NCBI GenBank assembly: GCA_009773395.1
Contig: WRPI01000002.1
Coordinates: forward strand, 420,413-484,412
Origin: Hyphomonadaceae bacterium
Lineage (GTDB): Bacteria > Pseudomonadota > Alphaproteobacteria > Caulobacterales > Aquidulcibacteraceae
Direction: 5' to 3'
Length of the DNA: 64,000 nt
Shown one piece after another: positions 16,321 through 57,852 of this stretch. The notes below the pieces were generated by a model that searched no databases, was not told the DNA's origin, and was given only the letters and a program-made list of their open reading frames with translations. Position 1 is the stretch's first letter. The number at the start of each line of letters is the position of its first letter. The translations under genes and the position numbers were made by a program.

Positions 16321-17118
16321 ATGTCCATTGTTCGGCTTGAAATTACTGGTTCGATTGCAACACTCACTCTTTGCCGGCCACAATCGCTAAATGCACTCGG
16401 TCAAGACGGCGATGGGCAGGCATTTCGAGCGGCATGTGAAAAAATAAATGCCGATAAATCGGTTAGAGCCGTGGTTTTTGCAGCCGAAGGTCGCGCTTTT
16501 TCTGCGGGTGGCGACCTCAAAGCTATGCAAGCCAAACACGGCAATTTTGCTGGCAGTCCTTCTGATATTGCTGATGCCTATAAATCCAATATTCATTTGA
16601 TAATCCGCTCACTTTGGGGCCTTGAAGTGCCTGTCATTTCGGCCATTAACGGCCCCGCTATTGGCTTGGGTTGCGATGTTGCCTGTATGGGCGACATTCG
16701 AATTGCTTCGAAAGACGCCAAATTTGGCCTAACATTTCTAAAAATTGGCCTTATTCCAGGCGATGGCGGTGCATGGCTTAGCCCGCGAATTATGGGCATG
16801 GCGCGTGCGGCCGAATTATTATTTACGGGCGATGTGATTGATGCTTCCAAAGCGCTTGAATGGGGCATTGTCTCCGATGTTGTTGAAGCAGATGAGCTGA
16901 TGGACGCAGCCTATGCCATGGCAACGCGGGTCGCGAAGCAACCGCCTTTGGCGCTACGCGCGACCAAAGCGCTGTTGCGCCAAGGCCAGAACACGAATTT
17001 TGACACTATTTTGGAACTTTCCGCCGCTACTCAAGGACTAATGCATAATACCGAAGACCATATTGAAGGTGTCGCCGCGATTCTTGAAAAGCGCGCGCCA
17101 CATTTTACGGGGCGCTGA
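16321..17118 (+). CDS. Enoyl-CoA hydratase/isomerase family protein
   Basis: 265 residues, crotonase fold. AFSAGGDLKAMQ forms the first oxyanion-hole strand with an Asp common in isomerase-type members. AINGPAIGLGCDVACMGDIRIAS is the second conserved block, and FLKIGLIPGDGGAWLSPRIMG has a Gly-Asp-Gly at the place of the second hydratase Glu. The C-terminal trimerisation helices are complete. A role in fatty acid or aromatic acyl-CoA breakdown is probable but the substrate is open. Start ATG 16321. A structured repeat lies immediately downstream. Confidence 0.88.
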   Translation: MSIVRLEITGSIATLTLCRPQSLNALGQDGDGQAFRAACEKINADKSVRAVVFAAEGRAFSAGGDLKAMQAKHGNFAGSPSDIADAYKSNIHLIIRSLWGLEVPVISAINGPAIGLGCDVACMGDIRIASKDAKFGLTFLKIGLIPGDGGAWLSPRIMGMARAAELLFTGDVIDASKALEWGIVSDVVEADELMDAAYAMATRVAKQPPLALRATKALLRQGQNTNFDTILELSAATQGLMHNTEDHIEGVAAILEKRAPHFTGR

Positions 17119-17136: not shown

Positions 17137-17242
17137 CTAGCGCGGTGGTTTTTCAAGTGGAACTTGAAAACCGCGCTAGATTCTTTACTTGGTCGCGCAA
17201 TTTATCCCCTCAAGCGATTCCACTTGAGGGGATTGCGCTCTA
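17137..17242 (+). repeat. Structured two-hairpin repeat, copy A
   Basis: About 106 bp after the crotonase stop codon. Hairpin 1: CTAGCGCGG (17137-17145) pairs with CCGCGCTAG (17171-17179), and inside it TTTTCAAGT (17150-17158) pairs with ACTTGAAAA (17162-17170). Hairpin 2: CCCCTCAAG (17206-17214) pairs with CTTGAGGGG (17223-17231). It ends in ATTGCGCTCTAA. Similarity extends upstream to GCGGCAAA at 17122. Related copies lie at 49970-50075 and, on the minus strand, 57323-57426. One frame through it (KTALDSLLGRAIYPLKRFHL) is open, as in the aroQ copy. Confidence 0.85.
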
Positions 17243-20137: not shown

Positions 20138-20749
20138 TTAGCGGCAAAGCACGTCTTCTAAACGTCCACCATAACTATTATTTCCGCCGAAATATAAAAC
20201 CCCACTGTGGCCTTGGCGACGACAGAAGTCATTGGCGCCATTTCGGTCATTGCGATAGCCATTGATTGTGCCGGGGTAAAATGTGCTGGCATTACCGCGT
20301 GAAGGCTGGCCAACATATTGCCCGCCGCCATAGCCACCGCCGCCATAACCACCACCGTAACCGCCGCCATAGCCGCCACCACCGCGCCCAACATAACGGA
20401 CTGCCGAAATTCTGCCACGGAAAGATTCTAAATTGGGAATTTGGGTGCTATATGTCCGGCAACGCACCGCATAATTATAATCAAGGCAAACTTCCCACTC
20501 TCCATTCGCAACTAATGAATGTGCCGCATCGTCAAAATTGATGCTCCGTAAATCGGGGTTGTCTTGGTTTATTATCCGACGCTCGCCAGTATAATTAAAA
20601 CCAGAATAAAGTTCCAAACTTGGGCCGCGACGCGAGCCGTGGCTTTCGGGTTGATAAACTTGGGCGCTAGACGGCGCCGCAGATATGGTTAGACTCGCCG
20701 CAAGCGCACCGATTGCCAATATGCTGCGGCCTTTTATTAAATTTTTCAT
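20138..20749 (-). CDS. Secreted beta/gamma-crystallin-like protein with Gly-rich linker
   Basis: 203 residues. Signal peptide to about residue 29 (SAAPSSAQ). Residues about 45-120 (LELYSGFNYTGERRIINQDN through GEWEVCLDYNYAVRCRTY to ISAVRYV) have the layout of a beta/gamma-crystallin or peptidase-inhibitor I36 domain, with strand pairs, the W-x-V-C core and conserved cysteines. A low-complexity GGGYGG repeat of about 25 residues follows, then a Cys-containing C-terminal segment (NDFCRRQGHSGVLYFGG ... LEDVLCR) that may form a second small domain. Probably periplasmic or secreted; calcium binding is possible but not shown. Transcribed alone, convergent with the TonB receptor. Confidence 0.7.
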   Translation of the reverse strand: MKNLIKGRSILAIGALAASLTISAAPSSAQVYQPESHGSRRGPSLELYSGFNYTGERRIINQDNPDLRSINFDDAAHSLVANGEWEVCLDYNYAVRCRTYSTQIPNLESFRGRISAVRYVGRGGGGYGGGYGGGYGGGGYGGGQYVGQPSRGNASTFYPGTINGYRNDRNGANDFCRRQGHSGVLYFGGNNSYGGRLEDVLCR

Positions 20750-49969: not shown

Positions 49970-50075
49970 CTAGCGCAAAGGATGTTCAAGAAGACTTGAA
50001 CATTTGCACTAGTTTTTTGTTTTGCCGCTCCTTTTTACCCTTCAAGTCATGCAAATTGAAGGGGCGTCGCTCTAT
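49970..50075 (+). repeat. Structured two-hairpin repeat, copy C
   Basis: 106 bp between the two pentapeptide genes, ending 2 bp from the stop of the second. Hairpin 1: CTAGCGCAAA (49970-49979) with TTTGCACTAG (50003-50012, one mismatch), then ATGTTCAAG (49982-49990) with CTTGAACAT (49995-50003). Hairpin 2: CCCTTCAA (50038-50045) with TTGAAGGG (50056-50063), then GTCGCTCTA. Same size and layout as copy A, but many stem bases differ on both sides. Confidence 0.75.
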
Positions 50076-50077
50076 TC

Positions 50078-50566
50078 TTAACGACAAGGCGCAATATGCA
50101 AACCGCGTGGTAATTCAGTGGTGGCATCGCCGCACGCACCATTCAATTGGCGCTGGGTCAAACCACGCGCACCAGCAGCTTCCGCGCCTGATAAATTAGC
50201 GCCGGTCAGAACTGCACCCGCAAAATTGGCGCCACTAAAATAACCGCCAACCATTGATGCTTGGCTTAAATTTGCGCGCGCAAAATTGGCGCCAGTGGCA
50301 CGAATGCCATACATATTGGCAATTGATAAATCGGCGCGTGAAAAATTTGTATATTCGGCAGTCGAAAGCGACAAATCCGATTGACGCAAACGCGAACCAG
50401 CCAGATTGCGCCTCGAAATATCTTCATAATCGAAATCAGCTTGAAAAAGATTGCAATTCGGACAAGAACGTCCCGCTTTAACTCCTGCAATTTGCGAAGC
50501 ATTTTGGGCCAATGCTGGCATTGAGACAAGGCAAGTTGCCAATAATGTAAAAGCCAATTGTTTCAT
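50078..50566 (-). CDS. Secreted pentapeptide-repeat protein 2
   Basis: 162 residues. Signal peptide to about residue 20 (LLATCLVSMPALAQ). CPNCNLFQADFDYEDI begins the repeat region with a CxxC, followed by about 14 pentapeptides (NLAGSRLRQSDLSLSTAEYT and so on). The C-terminal tail LTQRQLNGACGDATTELPRG followed by LHIAPCR matches the tail of the first pentapeptide protein. Length suggests a shorter paralogue. The stop codon lies 2 bp from the structured repeat copy C. Probably periplasmic, disulfide-stabilised; function unknown. Confidence 0.85.
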   Translation of the reverse strand: MKQLAFTLLATCLVSMPALAQNASQIAGVKAGRSCPNCNLFQADFDYEDISRRNLAGSRLRQSDLSLSTAEYTNFSRADLSIANMYGIRATGANFARANLSQASMVGGYFSGANFAGAVLTGANLSGAEAAGARGLTQRQLNGACGDATTELPRGLHIAPCR

Positions 50567-57315: not shown

Positions 57316-57852
57316 TTAGAACATAGAGCGCAATCCATTCAAGTGGAATCGCTTGAATGGATAAATTGCGCGACCAAGAAAGGAATCTAGCGCGGTTTTC
57401 AAGTTCCACTTGAAAAGCCACCGTTTGCCGCGAAGCCCATCAATCGCAAGGCGATAAGATTGAATGCCAAAACCCGCGACAACGCCAAATGCCACGGGCG
57501 ACACATAGCTTTTATGGCGGAAATCTTCGCGGGCATGGGGGTTGGATAAATGCACTTCGATTATTGGAATATCGAGTGCTTTCAGCGCGTCATATATGCC
57601 AATTGAGCTATGGGTTAGGGAAGCAGCATTGATAATTAGAGCGCAGGCCGCAGTTCGGGCTTCTTGAATCCAATTGATTAACTCGCCCTCTACATTGGAT
57701 TGGTGAAAAACAACTTCCGCACCCAATGCTTTGGCGGTTAATTCGCATAAATCTTGCACATCTTGCAATGTATTATGACCATAAATATGTGGCTCTCTTA
57801 TGCCTAGCATATTGAGATTAGGGCCATTTATTACATAAATTTGCTTTGTCAT
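57316..57852 (-). CDS. aroQ: Type II 3-dehydroquinate dehydratase with repeat-derived C-terminal tail
   Basis: 178 residues; type II dehydroquinases are normally about 145-150. Third step of the shikimate pathway. Core motifs: YVINGPNLNMLGIREPHIYG with Arg19 and Tyr24, NVEGELINWIQEAR, LIINAASLTHSSIGIYDAL, IPIIEVHLSNPHAREDFRHKSYVSPVAFGVVAGFG. The family sequence ends at about residue 141 (YRLAIDGL). The last ~36 residues (KTALDSFLGRAIYPFKRFHL and flanks) are encoded by copy B of the structured repeat, whose copy A has the same frame open. The repeat appears to have replaced the native stop. accB follows by 57 bp. Confidence 0.9.
   Translation of the reverse strand: MTKQIYVINGPNLNMLGIREPHIYGHNTLQDVQDLCELTAKALGAEVVFHQSNVEGELINWIQEARTAACALIINAASLTHSSIGIYDALKALDIPIIEVHLSNPHAREDFRHKSYVSPVAFGVVAGFGIQSYRLAIDGLRGKRWLFKWNLKTALDSFLGRAIYPFKRFHLNGLRSMF
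57323..57426 (-). repeat. Structured two-hairpin repeat, copy B (inside aroQ 3' end)
   Basis: Minus-strand copy. Hairpin 1 inner stem TTTTCAAGT/ACTTGAAAA at 57396-57404 and 57408-57416 is identical to copy A; its outer CTAG stem is partly lost. Hairpin 2 is TCCATTCAAG (57334-57343) with CTTGAATGGA (57352-57361), whereas copy A has CCCCTCAAG with CTTGAGGGG: both strands changed together. The aroQ stop lies just past the repeat. Confidence 0.85.

Follow-up and report, generated by a model that had tools for sequence, protein, structure and literature searches.

We have found that three repeats in a 64,000-nucleotide stretch of an alphaproteobacterial genome (the window) are probably, at a rough probability of 0.72, short non-autonomous mobile DNA repeats of the kind described as CcrM-associated intergenic repeats (CIRs), moved in trans. 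Each consists of two imperfect palindromes joined through a short conserved linker, and CTAG and TCTA predominate at the ends. A putative enzyme that recognizes DNA hairpins, on a single strand or in a cruciform, would move or copy the element in trans. The hairpins would serve as its recognition signal, and palindromy would be kept for that reason; one arm may also template repair of the other, helping palindromy further. The TAG and CTA in the ends often give a neighboring gene its stop codon, which would make insertion at gene ends cheap. Mobility is supported by the many copies, their unrelated sites, exchanged arms, and the lack of an element between aroQ and accB in two congeners. Copy number and pairing controls reject chance or artefact as the origin of the three repeats.

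Copy A (positions 17137 to 17242 of the window, plus strand) is a complete element of 106 bp, as judged from sequence, BLAST and folding. On the plus strand it runs from hairpin 1 (17137 to 17179), which folds into an outer stem CTAGCGCGGT/ACCGCGCTAG, an inner stem and a GGA loop, through a T-rich linker of 15 nt with CTTGGTC at its end (17180 to 17194), to hairpin 2 (17195 to 17238), which folds into an outer stem GCGCAA/TTGCGC and an inner stem TCCCCTCAAG/CTTGAGGGGA, and to the right end TCTA (17239 to 17242). The 5′ arm of each hairpin has a 4-nt one-sided bulge in the fold, and the loop of hairpin 2 holds GATTC, a GANTC site. Copy C (49970 to 50075, plus strand) is diverged, with 67% identity to A, and in its fold stem 1 contains a single C-A mismatch while the outer part of stem 2 pairs poorly. 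Copy B (57324 to 57427, minus strand) is missing its outer 5′ arm, the outermost 5′ bases of stem 1 having been lost. A layout of hairpin, linker of about 15 nt, hairpin and TCTA is common to all three. An initial annotation of the window had located these copies, B with slightly shifted coordinates, and had recognized two hairpins in each; its spacer of 27-34 nt was too long, because in the folds hairpin 2 has its outer stem beyond CCCCTCAAG, which leaves a linker of 15 nt in A.

Folded as DNA, copy A reaches -34.9 kcal/mol with a z-score of -9.27 (C, -3.74; B, -5.30), and 0 of 200 shuffles were as stable as the real copy for each of the three. Paired differences occur in both stems: stem 1 has GG/CC in A versus AA/TT in C, and stem 2 has CCCC/GGGG in A versus CCAT/ATGG in B. 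The paired stem changes noticed earlier are therefore real, and pairing controls on larger alignments, described below, bear them out. The three copies also lie at or near gene 3′ ends, as had been noted. Copy A starts 19 bases beyond the last base of an enoyl-CoA hydratase/isomerase gene (16321 to 17118, plus strand), copy C is flanked by two pentapeptide-repeat genes and finishes no more than 4 bases from the 3′ end of the one that abuts it (50078 to 50566, minus strand), and copy B lies within the 3′-terminal part of the aroQ frame. Such proximity is not a rule, since 7 of 36 copies in the genome face no gene 3′ end. As a separate feature, short tandem CCGCCATAG-like repeats lie within a reading frame at 20310 to 20387 of the window.

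The genome assembly of the window (G000; 2,633,741 bases, 2.63 Mb) contains many further copies. BLAST with copy A and some flank as query returned 36 matches at E ≤ 1, eleven of which span most of A (A and B included). Ten other places, B among them, match most of A at 82-96% identity, and nine copies are 88-96% identical to it. Covariance models, whose E-values are rough, were built from 12 copies (R1) and 55 copies (R2) and, with up to 150 candidates scored per genome, gave at least 39 matches at E ≤ 0.05 and at least 41 at E ≤ 0.001, respectively; the search of the genome and its relatives that had been proposed with the initial annotation thus produced many more copies, with matches in many relatives. 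The linker motif TTGGTCGCGC has 47 exact places in G000 versus 20 for the reversed motif. All 47 were inspected, and 20 are inside copies while 27 are chance-like; this survey yielded one further copy (L128) and the missing parts of two for which BLAST had given partial matches (L120). The genome's own copies among the 55 fitted to the model are 101-108 bp long. Each hairpin comes in several arm types, found in several combinations, and at L023 hairpin 1 is 95% like that of A and hairpin 2 is 63% like it, which corresponds to exchanged arms. The two copies of L120 (1495-1599 and 2976-3081) are inverted and lie 1.4 kb apart around an NtrZ-domain gene and an unassigned reading frame; no transposase was recognized among the frames scanned in the stretch between them.

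Copy B is read within aroQ (57316 to 57852, minus strand), which encodes a class II dehydroquinase of 178 aa. In this protein the dehydroquinase domain extends to residue 139, alignments of AroQ to 13 other genomes stop at residue 139-146, and four further copies of the element in G000 match within residues 135-176. Copy B thus encodes about 34 of the last residues of AroQ. In two congeners, G002 and G004, aroQ terminates at a stop of its own, and no element separates it from the accB-like start that comes next. AroQ identity among congeners is 59-64%, and they are too distant for exact empty sites. Judged from these comparisons, copy B at aroQ appears to be a lineage-specific insertion, and the AroQ tail is a clear case of repeat sequence turned protein sequence. 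Rickettsia palindromic elements (RPE) are palindromic repeats that may be read in frame within proteins. Copy B resembles them in being a palindromic repeat readable in frame within a protein; the likeness is one of description, and in-gene copies are exceptional here.

The ends and flanks were analyzed in 30 of the genome's own copies, a set from which B, fragments and the weakest matches were excluded. Of these 30, 21 begin precisely with CTAG and 20 finish precisely with TCTA; TA occupies bases 2-3 in 27 of 30, and a final TA is present in 25 of 30. No motif is clear in the flanks, apart from the rarity of C directly after the right end (1 of 30). No target-site duplication stood clearly above shuffled pairings in the flanks of the 30 copies, so that the ends carry no transposase-class signature; a TA duplication may be concealed in the constant ends. 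Predicted reading frames are overlapped by 14 of 37 own copies. At seven loci (L014, L020, L120, L169, L172, L179 and L180) a neighboring frame has its stop in the 4 bases at the very edge of the element; of these loci, L179 and L180 hold weak copies with less certain edges. Six of these seven edge-stopping genes have Pfam domains, PurK, iron alcohol dehydrogenase, NtrZ and histidine kinase domains among them, and the L180 frame has none. In Asticcacaulis (L312), the stop codon of iolG is likewise supplied by the element. Gene 3′ ends facing copies, counted over 36 own copies with L015 left out, are split between 15 on the same strand and 16 on the opposite strand.

The RAYT (Y1 tyrosine) transposases that move REP/BIME elements would be one source of mobility, and the repeats share with REPs their paired, imperfect, bulged hairpins, intergenic location and variable copy number. 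The transposase family searched was Y1_Tnp (PF01797), which had zero matches in five genomes of the genus (G000-G004) and was matched in 8 of 26 genomes overall. The repeat is present in 7 of 8 genomes with Y1_Tnp versus 12 of 18 without it (Fisher p 0.37), and 6 of 7 repeat-free genomes are without Y1_Tnp, so the transposase may be weakly associated with the repeat. It is not needed for the present copies, however, since eight genomes in which Y1_Tnp was not found carry repeats: with R2, G000-G004 have at least 41, 18, 4, 11 and 4 matches, respectively, and G027, G049 and G100 have at least 42, 55 and 28. The ends are also mostly CTAG and TCTA, with no GTAG tag beside a hairpin. According to the relevant passages of PMC3733652, REPs are tagged with GTAG or CGTC, tags that differ from the present ends, and CGTC repeats are missing in Brucellaceae. 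Movement as REP/BIME elements by a RAYT transposase is therefore very improbable in our judgment.

Kept complementarity was evaluated in three alignments: A6 (30 chosen copies) and A1 (22 own copies), which were made from sequence only, and A4, in which 55 copies were fitted to the model. A4 omits L018, L024, L155, L158, L163, L167, L177, L179-L181, L184, L187 and L194, together with everything above E 0.00003, and rows from Sinorhizobium meliloti pSymB are in neither A4 nor A6. In A6, 83.0% of cells pair, versus 28.8-44.4% with the partners slid; both-side changes occur in 18 of 24 pairs, and 116 cells are changed on both sides versus 40.8 in shuffles. The corresponding values are 87.4% (slid, 23.2-44.8%) with both-side changes in 11 of 24 pairs for A1, and 90.3% (slid, 28.5-42.2%) with both-side changes in 30 of 34 pairs for A4. 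The arms are kept complementary through double changes.

Under selection on a one-strand RNA, G-U is tolerated and A-C is not. The two kinds of mispair are nearly equal in number here: G-T 46 and A-C 47 among 1774 cells in A4, 20 and 25 among 698 in A6, and 21 and 16 among 525 in A1. This symmetry suggests that palindromy is maintained at the DNA level rather than as an RNA fold, although decaying copies could also be a source of equal counts. A control of 22 tRNA genes went in the direction that RNA should show, with G-T 35 and A-C 0, a zero that is partly by construction, as the pairs counted are those accepted under ARAGORN's own pairing rules; the acceptor stems, with the same finder bias, gave G-T 8 and A-C 0 in 154 cells. 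The selection on structure proposed in the initial annotation accordingly stands as kept complementarity, while the structured RNA that it implied is weakened by G-T being no commoner than A-C. A covariance model combined with the mispair symmetry test is transferable to other palindromic repeats and can help to tell DNA-level from RNA-level selection.

A structured RNA family, acting through its hairpins in the transcript of a neighboring gene as a 3′ UTR stabilizer, RNase III substrate or sRNA, would agree with the good folding of both hairpins as RNA and with the position of copies beside genes. S. meliloti REP elements are reported as transcriptionally active in the part of PMC2873474 that concerns them, and Rfam gave sub-threshold matches to the Brucella sRNAs BASRCI408 and BASRCI27 (E 0.00012 and 0.027-0.97); at the gathering score just two tRNAs were matched in the window. 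The symmetric mispairs (46 versus 47 in A4) are unexpected for selection on a one-strand RNA, and the facing gene 3′ ends show the same indifference to strand, 15 versus 16, which leaves this explanation quite unlikely.

The even split of orientations bears in the same way on the proposal that the elements are intrinsic terminators, in which hairpin 1 and the T-rich linker would have been spread or kept for ending transcripts. The linker is 57% T, 49 of 55 copies (28 of the 31 own ones) have at least 5 T in 8 bases beginning 0-2 bases past hairpin 1, and A and B are sense-oriented at a gene 3′ end. However, 39 of 55 copies have no linker T run longer than 3, there is no preferred orientation to gene 3′ ends, and hairpin 2 and both ends are conserved although a terminator has no need of them. 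A terminator scan, which does not allow bulged stems and may therefore miss hairpin 1, gave no site within any of the three copies. The two that it did give are elsewhere, a count not above shuffles. Termination in one direction is possible, but it does not explain the whole element, and we assign a low probability to terminators as the reason for its existence.

The family had been called new-looking, a description that has to be given up: its architecture, size and ends are as reported for CIRs (PMC2229807, in the section on these repeats), and the GANTC in a hairpin loop of many copies may be a further likeness. CIRs have been reported in Caulobacter and Brucella (Chen and Shapiro 2003, cited through Delihas 2007, PMC2229807) and are described there as about 110 bp long, with a pair of arms joined by a linker, TA termini and a GANTC site that a terminal loop exposes. 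The same account gives them stop codons in all frames, a mostly intergenic position and no intragenic copies, and calls for further data on how they move. The present repeats are similar by description in length, in their two inverted-repeat arms and linker and in TA near the termini; they too are mostly intergenic and alphaproteobacterial. GANTC overlaps a hairpin loop in 28 of 55 copies, is found somewhere in 37 and is absent from 18, the last being a difference from CIRs. There are 55 GANTC sites in the 55 copies versus 21.2 in mononucleotide shuffles, a comparison in which related copies are not independent. A further difference is that at least one open frame runs through the element in 33 of 55 copies and that copy B is read within aroQ, whereas CIRs are reported, in the text cited, as frame-closed and never intragenic. 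By its described architecture, the repeat is of a kind already known, the CIR type, and the family is not new in kind.

Two other groups of repeats invite comparison. Bru-RS elements are 103-105 bp long (PMC2267715, as excerpted), Bru-RS1 and Bru-RS2 are palindromic, are described as related and have copies of 103 and 106 bp (PMC10800456, likewise), and insertions of IS711 into Bru-RS are reported (passages of PMC3163539 and PMC2266754). Size and palindromic nature make them similar to the present repeats by description, the link in sequence being the sub-threshold Rfam matches to Brucella sRNAs. The second group, the Rhizobium-specific intergenic mosaic elements (RIMEs), is mentioned in passages of PMC2245857 and PMC2573895. 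Our R2 model has at least 19 matches on S. meliloti pSymB, a possible likeness to these intergenic mosaic repeats of rhizobia. RIME1 has two palindromes and about the same length as the present repeats. Seven of the pSymB matches were inspected, in a record without repeat annotation; five have the AAAAC-loop arm of the family, and the other two, in difference from it, are a two-hairpin repeat of other sequence. These two (L210 and L212) have other arms, another linker and other ends (TACTGCATG...CTGTAG) and are perhaps a separate repeat of the same design. Given L210 and L212, the reach of R2 extends somewhat past the family.

With R2 at E ≤ 0.001, matches were obtained in 19 of 26 genomes, a set made up of G000, 20 relatives searched with R1 whether matched or not, and 5 genomes added because of R1 or R2 matches. 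Among 28 further genomes, 12 were matched by R2 at E ≤ 0.0001, and under strict filters R1 matched 3 of 58 genomes sampled from the class, G000 among them. Eight named records or genomes were searched at E ≤ 0.01 and five matched: Sphingobium estronivorans (at least 38), S. meliloti pSymB (at least 19), Sphingomonas jatrophae (2), an alphaproteobacterial MAG (2) and Novosphingobium (1). One Rhizobiaceae, one Rhizobiales and one Rhodobacteraceae MAG had zero matches at this threshold. BLAST of copy A against plasmids and phages gave zero matches at E 0.01. The covariance search of Asticcacaulis excentricus pASEM-1 gave 6 matches of 62-75 bits in the 46 kb searched, and four of these six copies are clustered within 7 kb (L312, 1778-8543). 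In G013 some matches lie on both strands of one place (C8:89300-89416, for example), which inflates the count for this genome and suggests a fully palindromic variant or another repeat.

The chromosome of G049, a genome of the same class (G049:C1, a single contig of 3,741,076 bases; loci L252-L291), has its matches almost wholly on one strand. Among the R2 matches listed at E ≤ 0.01, from 150 scored candidates of 851, 64 of 65 are on the minus strand. A cmsearch of both strands in 40 pieces of 20 kb, 20 of them roughly evenly spaced and 20 near known matches (including the whole run from 460 to 820 kb), placed 26 of 26 matches on the minus strand, 16 at E ≤ 0.001 and 10 at E ≤ 0.05; the evenly spaced pieces account for 10, all minus. 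In the sampled pieces GC skew lies above zero between 3.66 and 1.52 Mb, across position 0, and below zero between 1.71 and 3.54 Mb, and since minus-strand matches occur in both parts, the two replication arms share the same strand. Around the own copies of G000, local GC skew was too weak a signal for use as a test of replication-coupled insertion.

It is conceivable that CIR, RIME, Bru-RS and the present copies form one alphaproteobacterial family of hairpin DNA, mobilized as ssDNA by a putative non-Y1 enzyme, and that they entered G049 on one strand over both replication arms, for which a simple replication-coupled mechanism would not account. We consider this broader proposal doubtful. A literature search that took in few subscription journals found no report joining the three named groups as one family. 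The strand bias of G049 provides a sharp clue on which ideas of the mechanism can be tested. In the G049 pieces, a strict hairpin-2 pattern occurs at 7 places on the minus strand and 0 on the plus strand, and the 3 plus places of a loose pattern are chance-like. Unlike those of G049, the copies of G000 and of pSymB lie on both strands.
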